64,000 bases of DNA from the NCBI RefSeq assembly GCF_001618145.1, contig NZ_LQNF01000013.1, positions 62,001-126,000 on the forward strand. The letters are read 5' to 3'. The position numbers and the translations under genes were made by a program. The notes beneath the pieces are model-generated. The model had not been told where the DNA came from and ran no database searches. It was given only the letters and a program-made list of their open reading frames with translations. Shown here one piece after another: positions 14,461 to 39,058 of this stretch. Source of the stretch: Oceanobacillus damuensis. Its GTDB lineage: Bacteria; Bacillota; Bacilli; Bacillales; Amphibacillaceae. How positions within the stretch are numbered: the stretch's first letter is position 1; each line of letters opens with the position of its first letter.

Positions 14461-14688
14461 TGAACCGGGGGGACAGTGAACCGAGGGGACAGGAACCCTG
14501 GTCCAGCTAATTAAGCAAACTAATAGACACATGAAAACCACCCTTGTAGCAGGCAATCGATGCTGAGTAAGCAATTAAATTTATTCTCAGCTGTGGGGCT
14601 CTGTGTATTGAAAATCTAGATTAGAATTCTAAACACACTCAGTCTCATCTACTAGAAATGGACCACGGTTCCTGTCCCTCTGGTCCGA
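14461..14688. mobile_element. REP/MITE-like element, copy 1
   Basis: Inverted ends GGGACAGGAACCCTGGTCC (14486-14504) and GGACCACGGTTCCTGTCCC (14660-14678) differ at one position when one is inverted. A partial extra end lies just outside on the left. The interior (CAATCGATGCTGAGTAAGCAATTAAAT, CTCAGCTGTGGGGCTCTGTGTA in part) is shared with the copy at 21754. The right end lies inside the 3' end of the HAD phosphatase frame. Confidence 0.75.
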
Positions 14689-27210: not shown

Positions 27211-27373
27211 GGGGGACAGTGACCCAGGGGGACAGGAACCCTGGTCCAACTAACAAGTTAAACTCCTTCTCCGCGAAGGGCTCTGTATATCGAGTAGAAA
27301 ATACAGACTCAGTACTGCCAGCAAACTCGGTTAAAACTATAAAAATGAACTGCGGTTCTGTCCTTCTAGTTCT
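27211..27373. mobile_element. REP/MITE-like element, copy 3 (degenerate, short)
   Basis: A clean left end GGGACAGGAACCCTGGTCC at 27229-27247, preceded by a partial tandem end (GGGGGACAGTGACCC). The interior is shortened but keeps GGGCTCTGTATA and CAGACTCAGTACTGCCA. The right end is decayed (GAACTGCGGTTCTGTCC, about 27347-27363). A 360-bp segment shared with 51776-52135 begins at its right border. Confidence 0.6.
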
Positions 27374-27812: not shown

Positions 27813-28280
27813 TTATGAGGCTCTTGTATAATCCTTTAGCATAGTAACAATATCTGTTTTTGAAGTAGCTTTCATCATTTTGTTAATGACTTGCCTATCT
27901 TGTAAAAGATTGATTATCGACTGTAAAACATGAACCTGATTAGAAGAATCCTGAATGACAAGCATAAAAATAAGGTGAACTTGCACTACTTCTCCTTTAG
28001 CAACCATATGCTGAAAAAGGACAGGTTCTTTCAAAATGCATACAGCAATTGTAGCTTTATTCACGTGGATACTATCGGTATGAGGAATAGCCACTCCAAT
28101 TCCATCTATAAGCAATCCAGTAGGGAACTTTTCCTCTCGATCAAGAACTGCTTGCTTGAATGTTTCTTTAACGTATCCCTTTTCATGAAGCTCATCGGCT
28201 AATTTCTCCAGTACTTGTTTTTGTTCGTTTTCTTCAATTAAAAAGGTCAACTTCTCATTAAAATAATCCTCCGTTTTCAA
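27813..28280 (-). CDS. PTS EIIA protein, fructose/galactitol (PtsN-like) type
   Basis: A 155-residue EIIA domain. The phosphorylated histidine is in VAIPHTDS (His 67 from the chosen start). The rest fits the family: FPTGLLIDGIGVAIPH, AVCILKEPVLF, HLIFMLVIQD, VLQSIINLLQD. The start is TTG at 28280, with AAGGAGG 8 bases upstream, and not the TTG at 28313. It is transcribed away from the thiamine operon, which ends in EIIC and EIIB genes of the galactitol class. Since galactitol-class EIIA, EIIB and EIIC are separate proteins, it is the obvious partner. A promoter (TTGACA, 17 bases, CATTTA) lies at 28471-28499. Confidence 0.82.
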   Translation of the reverse strand: MKTEDYFNEKLTFLIEENEQKQVLEKLADELHEKGYVKETFKQAVLDREEKFPTGLLIDGIGVAIPHTDSIHVNKATIAVCILKEPVLFQHMVAKGEVVQVHLIFMLVIQDSSNQVHVLQSIINLLQDRQVINKMMKATSKTDIVTMLKDYTRAS

Positions 28281-28396
28281 AACTTTATCCTCCTTGTATT
28301 CTCCTTTTACCAACCACTGCCTCTTATACTAAACTGTTCTTTTATAAAACCTGTTAACTCTTAGCTAGGTTACAATACCATCGAAAACTTGATGAC

Positions 28397-28499
28397 TGAA
28401 AGTATGCTTTCAGTCCGTGAGCAAATTAAATTTGTCTTTACTTTGACCAATAGATAATCAACTACTTTTTTAAATGGTAGATTCTTCATTTTCTGTCAA
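28397..28499 (-). promoter_or_regulatory. Promoter region of the EIIA gene
   Basis: Minus-strand -35 TTGACA (28494-28499), 17-base spacer, -10 CATTTA (28471-28476). Downstream in the leader lies a perfect palindrome CTGAAAG-N4-CTTTCAG near 28397-28414, a possible operator. The remaining bases between 28500 and 28680 show no gene. Confidence 0.5.
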
Positions 28500-28689
28500 C
28501 CCGATTATATAGGCTTCCTTTTTTACAACTCTTTAATCCAAGGAAGGACTACACCCGTATTTTCACCTACAGTATATAAAAAGGTGGGTAATATATGAAA
28601 ATATTTGCTTTTGATTAGACAGCGACTTTGTGAGAGCGAAAAGTGGCTACAATGACAATCACCCTACCCAAACCATAATAATTAGACTA

Positions 28690-28717
28690 TTGACAATTGT
28701 TGTAAGTATGCTATTAT
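28690..28717 (+). promoter_or_regulatory. Promoter of the thi operon
   Basis: TTGACA (28690-28695), 16-base spacer, TATTAT (28712-28717), about 35 bases before the TPP riboswitch. It points away from the EIIA gene. Confidence 0.75.
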
Positions 28718-28749
28718 TTAACTAAATAATCAAATATTTAATGATTCAC

Positions 28750-28841
28750 TAGGGGTGCCTTTTAAAAGGGCTGAGATCAAAGTAATTGACTTTGGGACTC
28801 TTTGAACCTGATACGGATTGATGCCGGCGGAGGGAAGTGAA
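28750..28841 (+). promoter_or_regulatory. TPP riboswitch (THI element)
   Basis: Conserved blocks are in order: AGGGGTGC, GGGCTGAGAT, CTTTGAACCTGAT, GATGCCGGCGGAGGGAAGTG. This is the thiamine pyrophosphate aptamer. An intrinsic terminator follows at 28881-28920, so control is by premature termination when TPP is abundant. Confidence 0.95.
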
Positions 28842-28880
28842 AGAACGGATATCGTAATATACTTGTTTAATGATGCGATA

Positions 28881-28920
28881 AAACCACTTTCCCCATATAC
28901 GGAAAGTGGTTTTTTTATTT
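28881..28920 (+). terminator. Riboswitch-controlled terminator
   Basis: AAACCACTTTCC pairs with GGAAAGTGGTTT across a 7-base spacer, followed by a T-rich run (TTTTTATTTTTT). It lies 40 bases past the TPP aptamer and 30 bases before tenI, which makes it the expression platform. Confidence 0.85.
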
Positions 28921-28950
28921 TTTCAAATAATCTTAAAGGAGAAACTTGGG

Positions 28951-29604
28951 ATGAATGATTTTAACAGTCAAGGTGATACATGTGGAGAACTTCATATTAT
29001 CTCAACTGGTGAACAATCACCCGAAATGTTTGTATCCATTGCTGCAAAGTTAAACGAATATGTAGATGCTTTTCATATTCGGGAGAAATCATGGTCTGAT
29101 TACCAATTGACTCAAACAATCAAACTACTCCATTCCAATGGCATTCCACTTGAAAAAATCATCGTCAATCACCATATTGATGTAGCCAACGCAATGCAGG
29201 TTCGGGGCGTTCAATTAACTTATCAAAGTATCGATGTATCAGTGGCAAGAAAAGCGTATAGATCCTTACACATTGGCTGTTCCGTCCATACCGTGGAAGA
29301 AGCTGTTTTCGCTGCTTTACATGGTGCAGATTACTTGCTATATGGTCATGTATTTGAAAGCCGCTCAAAACCTGGCGTAAAGCCAAAAGGATTGGATGGC
29401 TTGAAACAAGTCGTTCAGCATGTATCCATTCCAGTAATTGCAATTGGTGGCATCACCTCTCAAAATACGCCACAGCTTATCAATCATGGTGCAAGCGGTA
29501 TCGCGGTTTTATCAGGAGTGTTATTGTCCAGTGATCCTGTTGCAAAGGCAATCTCCTATAGGCATGCATTAAGAAAGGGGGCAAAAAATGAAGAAACATT
29601 ATGA
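28951..29604 (+). CDS. tenI: TenI thiazole tautomerase
   Basis: A 217-residue TIM-barrel protein of the TenI/ThiE family. Visible blocks are LHIISTGEQ, FHIREKSWSD, IIVNHHIDVA, GVQLTYQS, GCSVHTVEEAVFA, DYLLYGHVFESRSKPG and IAIGGITSQN. First in the thiazole operon and with the TenI-type GHVFES segment, it is assigned as the tautomerase acting on the ThiG product and not as thiamine phosphate synthase. The ATG at 28951 has AAAGGAG 9 bases upstream; the ATG at 28906 lies inside the riboswitch terminator. It overlaps thiO by 17 bases. Confidence 0.88.
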   Translation: MNDFNSQGDTCGELHIISTGEQSPEMFVSIAAKLNEYVDAFHIREKSWSDYQLTQTIKLLHSNGIPLEKIIVNHHIDVANAMQVRGVQLTYQSIDVSVARKAYRSLHIGCSVHTVEEAVFAALHGADYLLYGHVFESRSKPGVKPKGLDGLKQVVQHVSIPVIAIGGITSQNTPQLINHGASGIAVLSGVLLSSDPVAKAISYRHALRKGAKNEETL

Positions 29605-30712
29605 CGTCATTATCGTTGGCGGGGGTGTCATCGGCAGTTCCATTGCATTCTATTTGAGTAAGCGTAATTATCATGTACTCGTTGTAGAAAAAGAGGCACT
29701 CGCTCAAAAAGCATCACGTGCTGCTGCAGGCATGTTAGGTGCGCAAAATGAAATAGGTGAAAATAGTCCGCTTCTTCCCTTTGCTCTTAAAAGCAGAGCA
29801 ATGTTTCCGGCCTTAGCGGAAGAACTTCAATTTTTATCTAATATCAATATTGAGCTTATCCAAAGTGGGATTATAAAAGTTGCCCAGTCAGAAGAAGAGG
29901 CGGCACACTTACGGGCAATCGCATCCTTTCAAGAGAGATTAGGAGAAAAAGCAGAATGGTTGACTACGATGCAAGTGAAGGAAAGAGAACCAGAACTTTC
30001 CGAAGTTGTACAAGGCGGATTATATTTGCCAAATGACGGTCAAGTGTCAGCCCCACTTTTATCCAAAGCATTGGCCCAATCTGCAGCTGCTTTAGGAGCA
30101 GACTTCCTGGAATATACCGAAGTACAGGAATTAATTCAAGAGAATAACCGGATATCCGGTGTAAGAACAGGAACAGACATCCATCTCGCCGATCATGTCG
30201 TTATTGCGGGCGGTGCATGGAGCAAACAAATCTTAGAGAGAACGGGCATATCATTAGAAACGTATCCCGTAAAAGGCGAATGCTTTTCCGTAAATACGCA
30301 TAAACGTATCATCACATCAAGTATTTTTTCATCTGGGGGCTATATCGTTCCGAAGTCTGGCGGCAGATTAATTATTGGTGCTACAGAAAAGCCAGATACG
30401 TTTGATGAATCTGTTCAACTGGATGGACTTTATTCGTTAATGACTCAAGCGGTAAACATCATTCCAGCATTGAAAAATGCCAAATGGGAGAAGGCATGGG
30501 CTGGCATTCGCCCGCAAACAGGAGATGGATTGCCGTATCTCGGAGAACATCCACATGTTGCAGGGCTATTCGTTGCAACTGGCCATTACCGAAATGGTAT
30601 TTTATTAGCTCCTGTTACCGGTTTATTAATGGCTGATATGATCGATGGAAAGGCTGGCGATCACCCGTTTTCTATCAACAGAATTCCATATATGAAGGAG
30701 GCGAACATATGA
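29588..30712 (+). CDS. thiO: Glycine oxidase ThiO
   Basis: A 374-residue FAD-dependent amine oxidase of the DAO family. The dinucleotide-binding motif DVIIVGGGVIGSSIAFYLSKR is at the N-terminus (5-25), then the FAD-interacting SRAAAGML and the C-terminal GHYRNGILLAPVTG typical of glycine oxidase. It converts glycine to iminoglycine for thiazole formation by ThiG, with ThiS supplying sulfur. Position between tenI and thiS, with overlaps at both ends, supports one transcript. Confidence 0.92.
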   Translation: MKKHYDVIIVGGGVIGSSIAFYLSKRNYHVLVVEKEALAQKASRAAAGMLGAQNEIGENSPLLPFALKSRAMFPALAEELQFLSNINIELIQSGIIKVAQSEEEAAHLRAIASFQERLGEKAEWLTTMQVKEREPELSEVVQGGLYLPNDGQVSAPLLSKALAQSAAALGADFLEYTEVQELIQENNRISGVRTGTDIHLADHVVIAGGAWSKQILERTGISLETYPVKGECFSVNTHKRIITSSIFSSGGYIVPKSGGRLIIGATEKPDTFDESVQLDGLYSLMTQAVNIIPALKNAKWEKAWAGIRPQTGDGLPYLGEHPHVAGLFVATGHYRNGILLAPVTGLLMADMIDGKAGDHPFSINRIPYMKEANI

Positions 30713-30912
30713 ACCTGCTAGTGAATGGAAATGATTTACAAGTTCCAAGTGATGTAAATACGATTGCTGATGTCATTACCCATTTTTTTGAACAGGACCC
30801 CATTGTCATTGTGGAGCATAACGGAGAAATTTTGGAGAAAAATCACCATACTGAACGAATCGTCGCAGATGGTGACAAAATAGAATTGGTACAATTTGTA
30901 GGAGGCGGATGA
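30709..30912 (+). CDS. thiS: Thiamine sulfur-carrier protein ThiS
   Basis: A 67-residue ubiquitin-like carrier. It starts [16 protein letters not shown] and ends in VQFVGGG, supplying the C-terminal Gly-Gly that ThiF adenylates and that becomes a thiocarboxylate. It overlaps thiO by four bases and is followed one base later by thiG. Confidence 0.92.
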
Positions 30913-30913
30913 C

Positions 30914-31678
30914 ATGTTAACGATTGGTAAAAAACAATTTAATTCCCGATTACTTTTAGGAACCGGGAAATACCCAAGCTTTGCTATTCAGAAAGAAGCG
31001 GTTGACGTATCAGAAACAAATATTCTAACCTTTTCGGTGCGCCGGATGGATATCTTTGAAGCCTCCCAGCCGAATTTCCTGGAAAGAATCGACTTGAAAA
31101 ATTATGATCTTTTACCCAATACAGCCGGTGCAAAAACCGCTGAGGAAGCGGTTCGGACAGCCAAACTTGCGAAAGCATCCGGACTATGTGACATGGTGAA
31201 AGTCGAGGTGATTGGCTGTGATAAAACCTTGCTGCCAGACCCTGTAGAAACATTACGGGCTACGGAAGAATTATTGAAAGAGGGATTCATTGTACTTCCC
31301 TATACTTCCGATGACGTCGTTTTGGCACGAAAACTGGAAGAATTAGGTGCCCATGCGATCATGCCCGGTGCATCCCCTATTGGCTCAGGGCAAGGTATTA
31401 TTAATCCGCTTAACTTAAGCTTTATTATTGAACAAGCAAATGTGCCTGTCATTGTTGACGCAGGAATAGGTTCTCCAAAAGATGCTGCCTTTGCAATGGA
31501 GCTCGGGGCTGACGGGGTTCTTTTAAATACAGCTGTTTCCGCATCCCATGACCCTGTCAAAATGGCTGAAGCGATGAAACTCGCTGTAGAGGCAGGTAGA
31601 CTCGGCTATGAAGCAGGTCGCATTCCAAAAAAACGTTATGCAACCGCAAGCAGCCCAACAGAAGGGATTAGCATCTAA
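30914..31678 (+). CDS. thiG: Thiazole synthase ThiG
   Basis: A 254-residue TIM barrel. The Schiff-base lysine is Lys96 in MVKVEVIG, the same number as in B. subtilis ThiG. Other family blocks are [59 protein letters not shown] and [11 protein letters not shown]. It builds the thiazole ring from deoxyxylulose 5-phosphate, iminoglycine and ThiS-thiocarboxylate. Its stop overlaps the thiF start by one base. Confidence 0.95.
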
Positions 31679-32694
31679 TGAATGACCGTTATTCCAGACA
31701 AATATTATTTTCGCCCATCGGTCAAGTGGGACAGAAAAAGTTGGCAGAGAAGCATGTCCTACTGATTGGTGCAGGTGCACTTGGTACAGGAAATGCGGAG
31801 ATCCTTGTTCGTTCTGGAGTTGGAAAAATAACCATCGTTGACCGGGATTACGTCGAGTGGAGCAACTTGCAGCGTCAACAGCTGTACACAGAGAGTGATG
31901 CGAATAGTCGCATGCCAAAAGTCATTGCAGCAAAAAGAAGATTAGAGGAAATTAACCGGGATGTGCAAATTGAAGCCAAAATCATCGATGTCACCCCGTT
32001 GGAAATGAGCCAGCTTACCGATGGCGTTGATCTAATTATTGATGCAACAGATAATTTCGATATTCGACTCATTATCAATGACATATCGCAAAAACATCAT
32101 ATTCCATGGATATACGGCGCTGTCGTTGCAAGCTACGGCATCAGTTATACGATTCTTCCAAATGAAACGCCCTGTTTGCATTGTTTATTGCAACAAGTGC
32201 CAATGGGCGGGATGACTTGTGATACGGCAGGTGTTATCAGTCCCGTTGTTCAGATGGTTGTTGCCCATCAATCGGCAGAAGCTTTAAAAATTCTAACCGA
32301 TAATCGGGAAGCATTGAGACGGCAACTCATTTCCTTTGATCTTTGGACAAATCAGCAAGCTTCCATTGATGTCAGCACGTTCAAAAATACAAGCTGCCAT
32401 TCCTGTGGTCAAGCACCGACATACCCACATTTAAATTATGAAAGTCAAACAAAGACAGCCGTACTATGTGGGAGAGATACGGTTCAGATCAGACCGACAG
32501 CAGCTGGAAATCGAGACTTAGAAACGATTGCGGCACGTCTTTTCAATATAGGAAAAGTCGAACAAAATTCATTTCTATTATCTTTTACGAATGAACCGCA
32601 TCGTTTGGTCATGTTTCACGATGGACGTGTACTTGTGCATGGAACGAATGATGTGACCGAAGCAAAATCATTATATTACCGGTATTTCGGATGA
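31678..32694 (+). CDS. thiF: ThiF/MoeB-type adenylyltransferase
   Basis: A 338-residue E1-like enzyme. The nucleotide loop is LIGAGALGTGNAE, and DRDYVEWSNLQRQ and DATDNFDIR are the usual ATP and metal contacts. Two cysteine pairs (CLHC and CHSC) form the structural zinc site. It activates the ThiS C-terminus with ATP. A C-terminal extension follows the E1 core. It is the last clear thiamine gene; the PTS EIIC gene starts 67 bases later with a hairpin but no T-run in between. Confidence 0.9.
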   Translation: MNDRYSRQILFSPIGQVGQKKLAEKHVLLIGAGALGTGNAEILVRSGVGKITIVDRDYVEWSNLQRQQLYTESDANSRMPKVIAAKRRLEEINRDVQIEAKIIDVTPLEMSQLTDGVDLIIDATDNFDIRLIINDISQKHHIPWIYGAVVASYGISYTILPNETPCLHCLLQQVPMGGMTCDTAGVISPVVQMVVAHQSAEALKILTDNREALRRQLISFDLWTNQQASIDVSTFKNTSCHSCGQAPTYPHLNYESQTKTAVLCGRDTVQIRPTAAGNRDLETIAARLFNIGKVEQNSFLLSFTNEPHRLVMFHDGRVLVHGTNDVTEAKSLYYRYFG

Positions 32695-32698
32695 GCTG

Positions 32699-32732
32699 TG
32701 AAATGCCATTCTCTATATGGTATTTCAATTGA
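32699..32732 (+). promoter_or_regulatory. Hairpin in the thiF-EIIC gap
   Basis: GAAATGCCAT and ATGGTATTTC pair with one mismatch around a short loop. No T-run follows (AATTGAATTAG), so it looks more like a processing or attenuation hairpin than a full terminator. No convincing new promoter is visible before the EIIC gene. Confidence 0.45.
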
Positions 32733-32761
32733 ATTAGATAGAAACTAGTCTGGAGGGCGGT

Positions 32762-34090
32762 ATGTTGGAAGTTTTACAATGGTTTGTCGATTTGGGAGCG
32801 AGTGTGATGCTCCCAATGATTATTTTTATTTTTGCAGTACTGCTTGGTACAAATCCAGGAAAAGCATTGTATTCCGGATTGATTGTCGGCGTTGGTTTTG
32901 TAGGATTGAATCTCATCTTAAACTTACTCACGACGAGTTTAGGACCTGCGGCGCACTCCATGGTCGAACATTTCGGTTTAAACTTACAAACAATTGATGT
33001 TGGCTGGCCTGCTGCAGCAGCTATTTCCTATGGAACTGCACTTGGAAGTCTTGCTATTCCTATAGGAATTGGAATCAACCTATTATTATTGACTTTCGGA
33101 TTAACGAAAACAGTCAATGTGGATATTTGGAATTATTGGCATATTGCTTTTACAGGATCGCTCATTTATGCGTTGACAAATGATTTCGCGTTAGGTCTAT
33201 TTACAATCGCAGTGCATGCTATAGTGGTGCTCTTCATGGGTGATATGTTAGCGAAAGATATGCAACAGTATTTTGGATTAAAGCAAATTACCTTTCCACA
33301 TGCCGCATCCGCACCATCCTATTTTTTAGCGAAACCATTAAATGCCGTTTTTGACAAAATCCCAGGATTTAATATGTTAAAAGCAGACCCAGCTTCTATA
33401 CAAAAACGTTTCGGAATGTTCGGACATACGATTGTCTTAGGTGCATTGCTTGGTTTGCTTATCGGTTTAGTTGCAGGCTACAACATCCAAGATATATTGC
33501 AACTATCTATACAGACTGCTGCCGTCCTGTTTTTGATGCCAAAAATGGTTGCCTTGTTAATGGAAGGACTGACACCTATTTCAGAAGCTGCCAGTAAAAA
33601 ACTAAAGAATAAGTATCCAGACAGGGAGCTCTATATCGGAATGGACAGTGCGCTAGCAGTAGGACATCCCGCTGTATTATCCGCTTCCTTAGTCATGATA
33701 CCACTTACGTTATTTCTAGCAGTCATTTTACCCGGAAATAGAGTTTTGCCATTCGGTGACCTAGCAACAATCCCATTTTTAATTTGTTTAATGGTACCTG
33801 TGTTTAAAGGAAACATCGTCCGCACAGTCATCGCAGCAAGCATTTACATCAGTGTTGGATTATATATCGCTACATGGCTATCCCCGATATTTACGGAAAT
33901 GGCTTTGGCTTCGGACTTTGATATAGGAAGTAATTCCAGCGTCTCTTCCCTTGTTGACGGTGCTGTTTGGACAACAGCCATATTCGCAGGGCTAGGAAAA
34001 TTATTAAGCTGGTATGGGATTGGTGCAATTGGTTTAGGTGCTTTAGCCGGCTTAGTTTATGTAAATAAAATGAAAAAGGACGGAAAATAA
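32762..34090 (+). CDS. PTS EIIC, galactitol family, at the end of the thi operon
   Basis: A 442-residue membrane permease of the galactitol-class EIIC (Gat/Sgc type), close to the usual 450 residues. The N-terminus is LQWFVDLGASVMLPMIIFIFAVLLGTNPGKALYSG. Further family blocks are GLNLQTIDVGWPAAAAISYG, NYWHIAFTGSLIY, FPHAASAPSYFLAKP and GMDSALAVGHPAVLSAS. GGAGGG precedes the ATG. No PRD regulator or sugar dehydrogenase lies nearby. Placement directly after thiF on the same strand suggests TPP-controlled expression, hence a possible thiamine-precursor substrate; this is inference. Confidence 0.85.
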   Translation: MLEVLQWFVDLGASVMLPMIIFIFAVLLGTNPGKALYSGLIVGVGFVGLNLILNLLTTSLGPAAHSMVEHFGLNLQTIDVGWPAAAAISYGTALGSLAIPIGIGINLLLLTFGLTKTVNVDIWNYWHIAFTGSLIYALTNDFALGLFTIAVHAIVVLFMGDMLAKDMQQYFGLKQITFPHAASAPSYFLAKPLNAVFDKIPGFNMLKADPASIQKRFGMFGHTIVLGALLGLLIGLVAGYNIQDILQLSIQTAAVLFLMPKMVALLMEGLTPISEAASKKLKNKYPDRELYIGMDSALAVGHPAVLSASLVMIPLTLFLAVILPGNRVLPFGDLATIPFLICLMVPVFKGNIVRTVIAASIYISVGLYIATWLSPIFTEMALASDFDIGSNSSVSSLVDGAVWTTAIFAGLGKLLSWYGIGAIGLGALAGLVYVNKMKKDGK

Positions 34091-34092
34091 AC

Positions 34093-34377
34093 ATGAAAAA
34101 AGTGTTAGTCATTTGCGCGACAGGGATTGCTACATCTACCATCATCATGGCGCGATTAACAGAATGGTTGAAAAACGAAAACCTCCTGGAACATGTGGAA
34201 CTGCATCAAGGAAAAGTCAGTGAAGCATTCCATGTACAACAGGATTATGACTTTATCATCTCCGCTACGATCGTTCCGGATGATTTAAAGGAGAATGTGA
34301 TTGATGGAGTTCCATTGTTAATAGGTAATGGATCAGAAGAAGTTTTTGAAAACATTAAAAATAGAATTCGTAGGTGA
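34093..34377 (+). CDS. PTS EIIB, galactitol/lactose-type
   Basis: A 94-residue EIIB. The phosphocysteine is Cys8 in VICATGIATST, the P-loop typical of galactitol EIIB (GatB-like). It is two bases past the EIIC stop codon and is certainly co-expressed with it. The stop codon abuts a REP/MITE-like element directly, so the element probably provides or replaced the operon terminator. Confidence 0.88.
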   Translation: MKKVLVICATGIATSTIIMARLTEWLKNENLLEHVELHQGKVSEAFHVQQDYDFIISATIVPDDLKENVIDGVPLLIGNGSEEVFENIKNRIRR

Positions 34378-34608
34378 ACCGCGGGGACAGGAACCCTGGT
34401 CCAACTCATACAACGTACCGGGGAATGAGCCTGTTTCGACTAGTAAATCAAAACACACCTATATTATACTTGTAACAGATGGTAGATGCAGAGTGAGCAA
34501 TTAAAATCGTTCTCCAATGTTGAGGCCTGTATATTGAACAGAGAAACCAGGCTCAGCACTGCCAACGCACTCGGCGAAAATGGTCCGCGGTGCCTGTCCC
34601 TGTGGACC
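34378..34608. mobile_element. REP/MITE-like element, copy 4
   Basis: Left end GGGACAGGAACCCTGGTCC (34384-34402) and right end GGTCCGCGGTGCCTGTCCC (34582-34600). The interior (TTTCGACTAGTA, CACACCTATATTATACTTGTAACAG) is nearly the same as copy 5 at 63553, defining a second subtype distinct from copies 1 and 2. It lies between the EIIB stop and a truncated capA fragment. Confidence 0.78.
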
Positions 34609-35407: not shown

Positions 35408-36754
35408 CTACAAGACAAGCATTGCAACCAAAATTCCCACAGCGCTCATAAGAATAGAAAATGGAAAGTTAACCTTCGTAATGTAGTATGGTGAAACGCC
35501 AATTGTTTGTGAGGTAAGTGTTGCATTAATACCATAAGGTGCAGAAGCTGATGTTGCGAGCGCAGATATGATTAAGACGATTCCTATACTCATCGGGTTA
35601 ATTATACTGAATAACGGGCTTAATACTTCCAATAAGATGGCAATCGTTGCAACAGGATGCACCCCAATTAACCCCATCGCAAAATAAATCAATGTAATTA
35701 AAATAAAGTTGAATAGATAATAGTCGGAGAACTGACCAAAAATGTTCTGCAGAATCTCTGGGATCGACGTCTGGTTAAATCCCTCCGAAAATAATGCAAG
35801 TGAAAGAAATAACACCATAAAATTTTGCATACCATTATTATAATTCTTCCAGTTTTTCCAACCAAATCTGAAAAACGTGTAAGGAAGACGCATGAATATT
35901 GACCAAATAAAAGTAAACGGAAGAATGACTAAAGATACCGTTAAAATAAAATTAAGTTCAAACATATAGTTATTCACGATGATGATAGTAAAGAAAGCAA
36001 ACAAAACAAAAAATAATTTCATCAATGCTCTCATTAATTGTTTTTTATTTACATTTGTAGAATCGACAATCTCAATTTCAGAAAAACTTCTTTTACTCAA
36101 GTAGACATCGATAATGGCTAGTAAAAAGGAACATAATAATAGCCAAGGGAGGTAGGACAAGAAGCTCACATTGGTAGCATCGACCGTTATTCCAACAATA
36201 ATTTCCATCGGACTCCAGATTACTGCAAGAGAGAAAGTTCGTAATGTAACCTTAATAATAAAATCATTTCTGACCGTTTGATCTATCCCTTTTAACTTAT
36301 CCATAAGAATCTGTTGAACTAAGAAAATCGCCGAGATATTTATAAAAATTAACAAACTATATGTAGTTGAGATACTCTTTCCATACATTTCGGCCAACTG
36401 ATTGTTTTTCGCGTAAATCATATCTTTTAGATTTTGATCGTATTCACCAAGACTAAATGCACTCGCCATCCAAGGAAGCATACTTAAAAATATTAGCATG
36501 GGGAAATTATTAGTGAATTGCTGTGGAATCATATACCAAGCAACTCCCGAAGCAAAACTCATAGAAACACCAGTCACTGTAAAAATCACACTAATCAATT
36601 TAAATAAATTTGTTGCCAAAGGCCAGGAAAGAATGAAAACAACCAATGCGCTCCAACTAATAATGGAATGAATGGTGGAGGAATGTATAAATATATTCAG
36701 GATATATAATAAAAATACAATTCCATAGATAAGATAAAACTGTATATATTTCAA
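35408..36754 (-). CDS. Polytopic membrane transporter of unknown substrate
   Basis: A 448-residue protein with about 11-12 hydrophobic helices. It carries an internal GLIGVHPVATIAILLEVLSPL segment and a C-terminal ALATSASAPYGINATLTSQTIG segment, which remind me of ion-transporter superfamily proteins with helix-break motifs. I do not recognise the exact family. It is the last gene after a nucleoside hydrolase, separated by a hairpin, so a role with nucleosides, ribose or the freed base is possible. The start is TTG at 36754, with GAGG 8 bases upstream. Confidence 0.6.
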   Translation of the reverse strand: MKYIQFYLIYGIVFLLYILNIFIHSSTIHSIISWSALVVFILSWPLATNLFKLISVIFTVTGVSMSFASGVAWYMIPQQFTNNFPMLIFLSMLPWMASAFSLGEYDQNLKDMIYAKNNQLAEMYGKSISTTYSLLIFINISAIFLVQQILMDKLKGIDQTVRNDFIIKVTLRTFSLAVIWSPMEIIVGITVDATNVSFLSYLPWLLLCSFLLAIIDVYLSKRSFSEIEIVDSTNVNKKQLMRALMKLFFVLFAFFTIIIVNNYMFELNFILTVSLVILPFTFIWSIFMRLPYTFFRFGWKNWKNYNNGMQNFMVLFLSLALFSEGFNQTSIPEILQNIFGQFSDYYLFNFILITLIYFAMGLIGVHPVATIAILLEVLSPLFSIINPMSIGIVLIISALATSASAPYGINATLTSQTIGVSPYYITKVNFPFSILMSAVGILVAMLVL

Positions 36755-36842: not shown

Positions 36843-37775
36843 TTATGCTTGTTTTAAGGTTTCGATAAAGTCATCAATAAATCTTTCTGCATCAACATTA
36901 AGGCAAATGTTAACATTTGGCTCCTTTTTCCACAGATTTCTGAAATCACAAATGGTTTGTCCATAATTAAGCGGACTTACAGTTTCCACATCTACAAAGT
37001 ATTTTTTCGTTTCGATATAGGAAGGGTCAAGAAAGTAACCGATAGTTAATGGATCGTGTAATGCACAACCATTTGTTCCATACTGTTTTTCACTAAAAGC
37101 ACGGAAAACTTTTGTACTGTTTAATACAAAATCATAATATTTAGTTCCCTTTAACTTTTCAATATGCTCAAGCTTCATATAAGTCTGCAGTGTTACATCA
37201 AGACTTACCAACGTTACTTCTATCCCCGAATGAAACACAATTGAAGCTGCTTCTGCATCAGCAAAAATATTGAACTCTGAATTCGGCAACTTATTCCCTT
37301 TCCCGGCCATCGATACTAAGCCACCCATAATGATTACTTCATTAATCCAATCAGCGATTTTCGGTTCTTTTCTCAAAGCCAATGCTAAGTTAGTAACAGG
37401 ACCGACCATTATAAGGGTAAGATCCCCTTTATATTTTTTAGCTTGCTCTATAATAAAATCGGCAGCAAATTGCTCTTCGGTTTGGTTTTCTATCTTCATA
37501 TCATCCAAAGCATTTCCAATTCCATCGGTACCATGGACTCTAAACTCATATTCAGGCTCACGAATCAACGGTCTATCAGCTCCAGGATATACTTTGATAT
37601 CCTCTCGTCCGATTAATCGAAGTACTTTTCGTGTGTTCCGTTCGGTCATATGCAAAGGAACATTTCCACTTACAGTTGTGATTCCAAGCAAGTCAATTTT
37701 TTTACTTTCTATTCCATAAATAATAGCTAGCGCATCATCCACACCTGTATCGACATCAAGTATTATTTTACTCAT
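36843..37775 (-). CDS. Ribonucleoside hydrolase (IU-nucleoside hydrolase family)
   Basis: A 310-residue hydrolase that splits nucleosides into ribose and base. The calcium-binding motif LDVDTGVDDALA is at the N-terminus. TTVSGNVPL, NEVIIMGG, SEFNIFADAEAA and the C-terminal HDPLTIGYFLDP complete the active site. I use the ATG at 37775; the ATG at 37787 lies within the ribosome site AAGGATGGG. Neighbours are a concentrative nucleoside transporter and ribokinase, so imported nucleosides are hydrolysed and the ribose phosphorylated. Confidence 0.92.
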   Translation of the reverse strand: MSKIILDVDTGVDDALAIIYGIESKKIDLLGITTVSGNVPLHMTERNTRKVLRLIGREDIKVYPGADRPLIREPEYEFRVHGTDGIGNALDDMKIENQTEEQFAADFIIEQAKKYKGDLTLIMVGPVTNLALALRKEPKIADWINEVIIMGGLVSMAGKGNKLPNSEFNIFADAEAASIVFHSGIEVTLVSLDVTLQTYMKLEHIEKLKGTKYYDFVLNSTKVFRAFSEKQYGTNGCALHDPLTIGYFLDPSYIETKKYFVDVETVSPLNYGQTICDFRNLWKKEPNVNICLNVDAERFIDDFIETLKQA

Positions 37776-37802
37776 AAAATATCCCATCCTTATAAAAGAT
37801 TT

Positions 37803-39041
37803 TTAGAAAAAGAACATACCTACAATTGCTCCATTTAACAAATTAGCTAATGTTGCGACAATTAATGATTTAAACGCCATTCCTTGAATTTCATGCTTTC
37901 TCTTCGGTGCAATTCCTAGCATGATTCCTAATATTATTCCAATCGATCCAATGTTAGCAAAGCCAGCTAAAGCAAATGTCATTACGGCTACTGATTTATC
38001 TGAAAATTGCCCCATAACTTCTGCAAAAGAAGTAAAAGCAACAAATTCATTTAAAATCATTTTTTCACCAAGTAGACTACCTGCGAGTAATGCTTCATTC
38101 CAAGGAATACCAATAATTAAAGCTAATGGTGAAAATATATAACTGAATATTAAGTTTAGGGATAAGTTGCTCATTCCAAAAATGGACCCGATTCCACCCA
38201 GCATGATATCCAATAAAGCAACAAGTCCGATAATTGAAATTAACACCATTGCTGCATTGACAGTAAGACTGACGCCGTCACGGGAACCATCAATTACAGC
38301 ATCCATAAATGTTGATTTTTCTCCTGTTGCGGAAGCGTTAAAGTTATCAATTTCCTTCCATTCTGATTCACTGAGCTCCTTGGTTTCCGGAATAACTAAC
38401 TTTGCCATCATCAGTCCGGCTGGTGCAGACATAATTGCTGCAGATAATAAATAATCAACGGGAACTCCTAATGCGACTAATCCAAAAAGTACTGCCCCAG
38501 AAACGGATGCAAGACCCCCAACCATAATTGCAAAAATCTGTGAACGTGAAATTTGGCTGATGTATGGTTTTACAGAAATAGCAGATTGCGTCATACCAAG
38601 GAACATATTCGTTACTGCGTTTGTAGATTCTACGTAGCCAGTTTTCATAAACTTGGATATAAAACCACCAACGATCCTAACAAAAAATTGCATAATTTTA
38701 AAATGATAAAGAATCGCGATTAGTGCTGTTAAAAACACCATAATGGTTAATACATTGATAATGAACACCGAACCAACCACTCCATTTGGGTTAGCCAGTT
38801 CACCAAAAACAAACTGTAATCCTTCTCTTCCAGCCGTCATGATGGCATCTACACCGTTAGAAATAAATTGAATAAAGGATATTCCAATGCTCCATTTAAA
38901 TACGATAAAACCTAATATAACCTGTAACAAGAATCCGATTGTTACCGTTTTCAAATTAATTGCTTTTTTATTCTCAGACATTAAATAGGTTATTCCAACA
39001 ATAATAGCACAACCTAGTAGGCCCCATAAAATTGATATCAT
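37803..39041 (-). CDS. nupC: NupC family concentrative nucleoside transporter
   Basis: A membrane transporter of about 412 residues, CNT family. Family blocks are FVFGELANPNG, MGMTQSAISVKPYI in the form LGMTQSAISVKPYI, SGAVLFGLVALGVP, SAPAGLMMAKL, NEFVAFTSFAEV and FALAGFANIGSIGIILG. It imports nucleosides with a cation. The ATG at 39041 is preferred, as the GTG at 39050 overlaps the AGGGGTG ribosome site. It lies between ribokinase and nucleoside hydrolase. Confidence 0.92.
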   Translation of the reverse strand: MISILWGLLGCAIIVGITYLMSENKKAINLKTVTIGFLLQVILGFIVFKWSIGISFIQFISNGVDAIMTAGREGLQFVFGELANPNGVVGSVFIINVLTIMVFLTALIAILYHFKIMQFFVRIVGGFISKFMKTGYVESTNAVTNMFLGMTQSAISVKPYISQISRSQIFAIMVGGLASVSGAVLFGLVALGVPVDYLLSAAIMSAPAGLMMAKLVIPETKELSESEWKEIDNFNASATGEKSTFMDAVIDGSRDGVSLTVNAAMVLISIIGLVALLDIMLGGIGSIFGMSNLSLNLIFSYIFSPLALIIGIPWNEALLAGSLLGEKMILNEFVAFTSFAEVMGQFSDKSVAVMTFALAGFANIGSIGIILGIMLGIAPKRKHEIQGMAFKSLIVATLANLLNGAIVGMFFF

Positions 39042-39058
39042 TACATTCACCCCTTCTA

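Follow-up and report, generated by a model that had tools for sequence, protein, structure and literature searches.

Why should genes of a sugar phosphotransferase system (PTS) stand at the end of an operon for thiamine synthesis? The question is raised by a 64,000-nucleotide stretch of Oceanobacillus damuensis DNA (positions 62001-126000 of contig C10 in G000, the genome holding it; hereafter, the window), in which a thiamine pyrophosphate (TPP) riboswitch and a set of thiazole genes are followed by genes for the PTS components EIIC and EIIB. The thiazole synthase ThiG uses 1-deoxy-D-xylulose 5-phosphate (DXP), and on balance this PTS probably imports 1-deoxy-D-xylulose (DX) as DXP, the sugar substrate of that enzyme. 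We infer the cargo, the position phosphorylated and the direction of each partner enzyme from sequence comparison and gene neighbourhoods.

A phosphotransferase system in a thiazole operon

The riboswitch aptamer (THI element; 28741-28852, + strand) matches RF00059 over its full length at 75.3 bits (gathering score, 54.3), a level that nothing else in the window reaches against Rfam. A promoter-like site, identified by consensus match (11 of 12 positions), lies upstream of it at 28690-28717 (+), and an intrinsic terminator consisting of a 13-pair stem and a T-run occupies 28880-28913 (+) in the interval before tenI. This terminator also appears in the predicted fold of 28730-28925 and provides the expression platform of a TPP-controlled operon. 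The genes that follow on the + strand are tenI (thiazole tautomerase, 28951-29604; PF02581, 135 bits; TenI model, 240.3 bits, slightly below the cut-off of 251), thiO (glycine oxidase, 29588-30712; TIGR02352, 364 bits, cut-off 250.8), thiS (sulfur carrier, 30709-30912; TIGR01683, 58.6 bits), thiG (30914-31678; PF05690, 371.1 bits), a thiF-type adenylyltransferase gene (31678-32694; PF00899, 230.9 bits; PRK12475, 550 bits over 510) and the genes for EIIC (32762-34090) and EIIB (34093-34377). The EIIA gene (27813-28313, - strand) is divergent. Rfam and Pfam matches and the open reading frames (ORFs) bear out this arrangement as it was described in a first-pass annotation of the window. The tight spacing between thiF and EIIC noted there was also found: the gap is 67 bases, and no + strand promoter-like site of at least 9 of 12 positions was detected in 32055-33351. 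Transcription probably reads through from thiF into EIIC-EIIB.

EIIC contains the EIIC-GAT domain (PF03611, 294.6 bits; threshold, 24.2) and matches the solved galactitol IIC structure 9u82 at 376 bits. It belongs to the galactitol family, yet it is not filed as a galactitol transporter because its score against the galactitol IIC model TIGR00827 (458.2 bits) is below the cut-off (542.2). EIIB (PF02302, 39.4 bits) carries a Cys in the motif VICATGIATST that is aligned in its relatives, and EIIA (EIIA_2 family; PF00359, 113.4 bits), the only PF00359 match in G000, carries a His in GVAIPHTDS; we take these two residues to be the active, phosphorylated ones. EIIC and EIIB matched PTS families only, with no match to the known thiamine transporter families. 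EIIC shares 94% identity with its counterpart in Oceanobacillus rekensis, and the dN/dS values between the two species are 0.110 for EIIC, 0.086 for EIIB, 0.077 for ThiF and 0.209 for ThiO; purifying selection acts on EIIC and EIIB at a level close to that on ThiF.

The system resembles the galactitol PTS (GatABC) in its EIIC-GAT family membership and in having separate EIIA, EIIB and EIIC proteins, but differs from it in its TPP control and in the lack of a polyol dehydrogenase or aldolase nearby. TPP-riboswitch control is shared with ThiT, ThiW and YkoEDC, but these are transporters of the energy-coupling factor or ATP-binding cassette kind, whereas the PTS of the window would work by group translocation driven by phosphoenolpyruvate.

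TPP-controlled relatives and their origins

In a survey of 159 genomes of the family, EIIC matches were present in 92. Thirty-two long, close EIICs (at least 54% identity, the window included) are separated by a gap from the galactitol-type proteins (48% or less), and their neighbourhoods divide them into 13 thi-type, 10 E1-type and 9 aldolase-linked (FBA) proteins. A TPP riboswitch was found upstream of all 12 intact thi-type EIICs, namely those of the window, of L019/L069 (on one contig) and of ten further loci; thus the same EIIC-EIIB pair does recur after thiF or under THI elements, which the first-pass annotation had proposed to look for. The pair follows thiF in the thiazole operon in nine of the 12 genomes, and forms a stand-alone riboswitch-EIIC-EIIB unit (TPP-solo) with thi genes close by in the other three (L082-L084). 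The riboswitch scan of eight loci of the E1-linked type returned no TPP riboswitch. Outside the family, where 397 and 398 genomes were searched for EIIC, none of 30 close EIIC loci (L134-L163) had thi genes by BLAST, these loci not having been scanned for riboswitches; the thi linkage is known within this family only, because none of these 30 loci had such genes. The thirteenth thi-type locus, in G047, has an EIIC with a disrupted N-terminus and no riboswitch nearby, in a genome without a strong ThiG. In another genome, G145, codBA is separated from the thi operon by a decayed thi-type EIIC fragment interrupted by a stop (L164, G145:C31:110860-128144); this genome also has an intact E1-linked PTS.

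A quick EIIC tree was built from 81 of 104 rows, after the near-copies L011, L013 and L019 and matches of 300 bits or less had been dropped, and a careful tree from 37 hand-picked rows of these 81. In the careful tree, the TPP-solo EIICs form a clade of their own (100/100) beside the E1-linked L080 (98/94) and apart from the thi-operon EIICs. A single clade of thi EIICs was rejected (log-likelihood difference, 73; approximately unbiased test, p = 4.1e-5), the tested group having been set by neighbourhood with the quick tree already known. EIIC-EIIB was thus recruited to TPP control at least twice, separately, and its conserved context places the PTS in the TPP regulon. The idea that it is a chance neighbour is weakened by the riboswitches at 12 of 12 loci and by the two origins.

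The E1-linked EIICs (taken without L025, L144 and L145) are set apart at 41 sites from their galactitol-type kin, which are accompanied by dehydrogenases. At these sites, the E1-linked state persists to 95% and 91% in the two thi groups and to 78% in the FBA-linked EIICs; this retention is due in part to kinship alone.

Sister loci with DXR-II and an E1-E2-E3 dehydrogenase

What the PTS carries is suggested by the neighbours of its closest relatives. Among the ten E1-type EIICs of the family, a gene for the E1a subunit of a TPP-dependent E1-E2-E3 dehydrogenase lies within 6 kb for five, 10 kb for eight and 17 kb for nine, and the clusters contain PRD or SorC regulators. The same EIIC-E1 pairing occurs outside the family in Brevibacillus laterosporus (L013) and at L134, L139-L141, L149, L152 and L162. 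The earlier observation that no sugar enzyme or regulator accompanies the PTS holds at the window, but the sister EIICs have both. Homologues with sugar catabolic genes had been named in advance as a finding that would speak against a thiamine role; the sisters do have such genes, but most of these point to DXP.

The E1a protein scored 380.5 bits against the pyruvate dehydrogenase (PDH) E1-alpha model TIGR03182, missing the cut-off of 393.85, whereas E1b passed its E1 beta subfamily model (397.6 bits over 321). E1b and E3 pass the PDH E1-beta and dihydrolipoyl dehydrogenase models, and E2 is below the curated PDH cut-off. All four subunits are homologous to those of pyruvate and acetoin dehydrogenase complexes, but the sister complex differs from these in its linkage to PTS and DXR-II genes and in the location of E1a-E1b by thi genes in four genomes. 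DXP is itself an acyloin, the class of compound on which acetoin dehydrogenase-like complexes act by cleavage.

In three of these four genomes (G082, G083 and G113), the next genes after thiF under a TPP riboswitch are E1a-E1b, at the place filled by EIIC-EIIB in the window; in G095 the two genes stand just ahead of a TPP riboswitch. No E2 or E3 gene was found beside the thi-linked E1a-E1b of G083, G113 or G095, and the G082 contig ends 288 bases beyond E1b. A second, complete E1a-E1b-E2-E3 set is present elsewhere in G083. No close EIIC was found in any of the four genomes. The four thi-adjacent E1a genes require three label changes on a quick E1a tree and may have arisen by three gains.

E1a is present in 36 and a DRL match in 43 of the 159 family genomes. 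DXR-II lies near E1a in many of them (within 17 kb in 27 of the 36 genomes, 10 kb in 22 and 2 kb in 14), and the association is confined to strong DRL genes (27 of 34, against none of the 13 weaker ones). Sixteen hand-picked neighbourhoods from this survey were opened. Sorbitol-type PTS genes were found in all nine opened E1a-DXR-II clusters (L225, L292-L298 and L302), and seven strong DRL genes without E1a likewise adjoin such genes. In G043, one of the thi-PTS genomes, the dehydrogenase stands behind SorC, GutM, SrlA, SrlE, SrlB and a DRL-domain protein (catalytic domain, 224 bits; PDB 3upy match, 342 bits). DXR-II is described in PMC3847144 as an alternative DXP reductoisomerase, with 3upy named as a member. 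That paper is also the source of ten conserved positions, of which Val351 is kept in most DXR-II. Nine of them (Gly121, Glu174, Phe178, Lys191, Lys193, Thr229, His250, Arg320 and Tyr322) are conserved in 30 of 30 DXR-II genes checked (31 rows, G043 appearing twice), drawn from 30 of the 43 genomes in which DRL was matched; the G043 protein does not retain the tenth, Val351, as judged by eye from the alignment. The sister-cluster enzyme thus resembles the DXR-II/DRL proteins of PMC3847144 (PDB 3upl/3upy) in its DRL catalytic domain and nine positions, whereas the enzyme described there is biosynthetic (DXP to 2-C-methylerythritol 4-phosphate, MEP) and its company here of a sorbitol-type PTS and E1-E2-E3 suggests catabolic use.

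The sorbitol-type PTS with DXR-II would fit a route from 2-C-methylerythritol through MEP to DXP, and the GAT-type PTS, which is also found without DXR-II, would fit import of the ketose itself. Because both PTSs adjoin one dehydrogenase in G049, G118, G148 and G009, two importers appear to converge on it.

Some E1-type clusters also encode an AraD-like protein (270.8 bits against the L-ribulose-5-phosphate 4-epimerase subfamily model; cut-off, 251). Such an epimerase would suit a PTS that imports another 1-deoxyketose or a pentulose, whose phosphate would yield DXP or another ThiG-usable sugar only through an additional reaction, for example epimerisation at C4, but this seems unlikely: no AraD-like gene was found by the thi-type PTSs, and several E1-linked clusters are also without one. 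DX is the preferred cargo because ThiG, DXR-II, an acyloin-cleaving E1 and an AraD-like C4 epimerase have a single fitting compound in common, namely DXP.

Candidate cargoes and a proposed DXP economy

Together, EIIA, EIIB and EIIC constitute a galactitol-family PTS within the TPP regulon. When TPP is low, the riboswitch would permit transcription through thiF into EIIC-EIIB, and the PTS, if DX is its cargo, would bring in DX and deliver DXP to ThiG. ThiG joins DXP with dehydroglycine, supplied by ThiO, and with ThiS-borne sulfur activated by ThiF to form the thiazole, the substrate for tautomerisation by TenI. The benefit may be a source of DXP independent of DXS, whose own cofactor is TPP, at times of TPP shortage. 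XylB-dependent salvage of DX is described for Escherichia coli in PMC3424233; there, too, DX becomes DXP, but XylB is a kinase, whereas a dedicated, TPP-controlled PTS is proposed here. A search of the open-access literature, a limited negative with subscription papers mostly outside its reach, returned neither a PTS for thiamine synthesis nor one that imports DX, nor any DXR-II cluster with a catabolic role.

Several observations weigh against DX import, and some of them favour other readings. Among the relatives, nine further close EIICs of the family (the FBA-linked ones) are tied to aldolase-type gene sets, and the four of them in the careful tree nest inside the same larger clade. Neither DXR-II nor ThiG nor an E1-type EIIC lies near the E1a genes of G110, G111 and G155 or near a second E1a copy of G083, and the E1-E2-E3 complex could have a different acyloin or a 2-oxo acid as its substrate. 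For the distances around E1a, ThiG positions were taken from 25 of 82 strong ThiG genes (24 from the 36 E1a genomes and one other). A group of close EIICs, at L085-L092, L137 and L143, occurs with a triosephosphate-isomerase-like protein, mostly together with a class II aldolase and YjbQ (UPF0047). Because the annotation of YjbQ is that of a secondary thiamine-phosphate synthase, this group was considered as thiamine-linked but set aside in view of its aldolases and, mostly, PRD regulators.

Within EIIC itself, site 181 is Gly in the E1-linked, galactitol-type and TPP-solo proteins and Ala in nine of nine thi-operon EIICs, a difference that could reflect an altered cargo. This substitution would suit import of hydroxyethylthiazole (HET), a primary alcohol that a PTS in a thiazole operon under a TPP riboswitch might deliver as its phosphate, bypassing ThiM. 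Against this, ThiM is kept in all 12 thi-PTS genomes (and in at least 148 of the 159 family genomes), and a further TPP-controlled operon of G000 encodes ThiW (181 bits over 84) together with TenA and ThiM, so that thiazole salvage is provided for already. Moreover, the intact PTS was found only with ThiG, where a salvage importer would be less useful than in its absence; the sister EIICs adjoin sugar-phosphate enzymes; and each of the two separate recruitments would have needed an identical change of cargo. We therefore regard HET as quite improbable. The co-occurrence with strong ThiG (82 of the 159 genomes, a complete count) extends to 12 of 12 intact-PTS genomes, and the possibility that the PTS aids genomes lacking ThiG was set aside on this ground; the count is nevertheless weaker than it appears, because ThiG is built into the operon in nine of them.

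Also against DX, a codB-codA pair, assigned to pyrimidines by reading of its sequence, precedes the PTS in the three TPP-solo genomes. CodB-like proteins include carriers of hydroxymethylpyrimidine (HMP), and under TPP control this neighbourhood would suit a PTS that imports HMP and delivers HMP phosphate, bypassing the first ThiD step. However, codB-codA is pyrimidine-controlled because it carries a PyrR site, the salvage operon contains a ThiD-like gene by sequence reading, and in nine genomes the PTS lies in the thiazole and not the pyrimidine operon. HMP is accordingly very improbable. Group translocation of a thiamine precursor, as the first-pass annotation put it, remains the best general idea, with linkage in 12 genomes, but its choice of HMP or HET as that precursor is not favoured.

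Two further difficulties concern the PTS as a working unit. No complete EIIA gene lies by the PTS in eight of the 12 genomes (G081, G053, G043, G057, G138, G139, G140 and G052), and in G081 the PTS would need a borrowed EIIA because the only EIIA_2 match lies in a 635-codon frame elsewhere; G052 has a truncated EIIA frame between thiF and EIIC (L065:6738-7001). In addition, a terminator-like hairpin (32792-32816) lies inside the coding start of EIIC, the tight spacing after thiF notwithstanding, and is retained in the 94% identical relative; terminator-like sites in 28300-34600 numbered 3, against 5.4 in shuffled sequences. The missing EIIA genes, together with a patchy distribution and the decayed copies in G047 and G145, would be expected of an ordinary sugar or polyol PTS that landed behind thiF and has no role in thiamine synthesis. 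The TPP riboswitch at every intact locus with its two separate origins, the selection on EIIC and EIIB and the stand-alone units in three genomes argue against such a hitchhiker, which we consider distinctly unlikely.

Several other features of G000 may be noted. ThiD and ThiE in its salvage operon were named by sequence reading and position, and the genome also has YkoE/YkoF and a ThiT-like protein (ThiT by sequence reading). A TPP riboswitch at G000:C3:87588-87694 (L004:1501-1607) precedes, by some 80 bases and on the same strand, an LplA/LipM-like gene and lipA (L231:3589-5569; lipoyl synthase, 401 bits, TIGR00510), which suggests TPP control of lipoate synthesis in this genome. Another, at G000:C2:157653-157759 (-), shares its strand with YkoF- and YkoE-like genes (L229:3368-6745), with a sodium:solute symporter gene broken by an in-frame stop divergent from it. 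A third, at G000:C1:150835-150935 (-), precedes short-chain-dehydrogenase-like and luciferase-monooxygenase-like ORFs (L232:3555-5936; assigned by sequence reading only), which are unusual members of a TPP regulon. Within the window, a 20-base repeat, GGGGACAGGAACCCTGGTCC, has eight copies at three or fewer mismatches (none expected), four of them exact; the eight lie at 27228-27247 and 34383-34402 and also at 14485, 14660, 21753, 22020, 63552 and 63754. The EIIA-thi-PTS block stands between exact direct copies of the repeat, and one of these begins 6 bases past the EIIB stop. Downstream of the block, the other strand contains a membrane-protein-like ORF without a Pfam match (35408-36754), an ORF that presumably encodes a nucleoside hydrolase (36843-37787) and a NupC-type nucleoside transporter gene (37803-39050).

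Taken jointly with its sister loci, the window leads to a broader and more tentative proposal, whose prospects we put at slightly under even: that Bacillota put DXP to uses other than isoprenoid synthesis, in an economy so far unrecognised. A GAT-family PTS would import DX as DXP; a sorbitol-type PTS with DXR-II would convert 2-C-methylerythritol through MEP to DXP; and the E1-E2-E3 complex would cleave the acyloin DXP, yielding acetyl-CoA and glyceraldehyde 3-phosphate. On at least two occasions the PTS, and on about three E1a-E1b, would have moved beside thiazole genes, mostly under TPP riboswitches, as alternative supplies of DXP for ThiG.

If correct, DX import would represent a sugar PTS devoted to vitamin production under riboswitch control and acting as a dedicated DX importer. 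Two further enzymes are predicted by the proposal: a new dehydrogenase that cleaves DXP as an acyloin, and an E1 of thi operons that makes DXP as an alternative source. Both would be relevant to the biology of the MEP pathway and to thiamine or isoprenoid engineering. Firmicutes have a DXR-II that is redundant with DXR-I, according to PMC3847144, and a catabolic route through DXP would explain why they keep the one beside the other.

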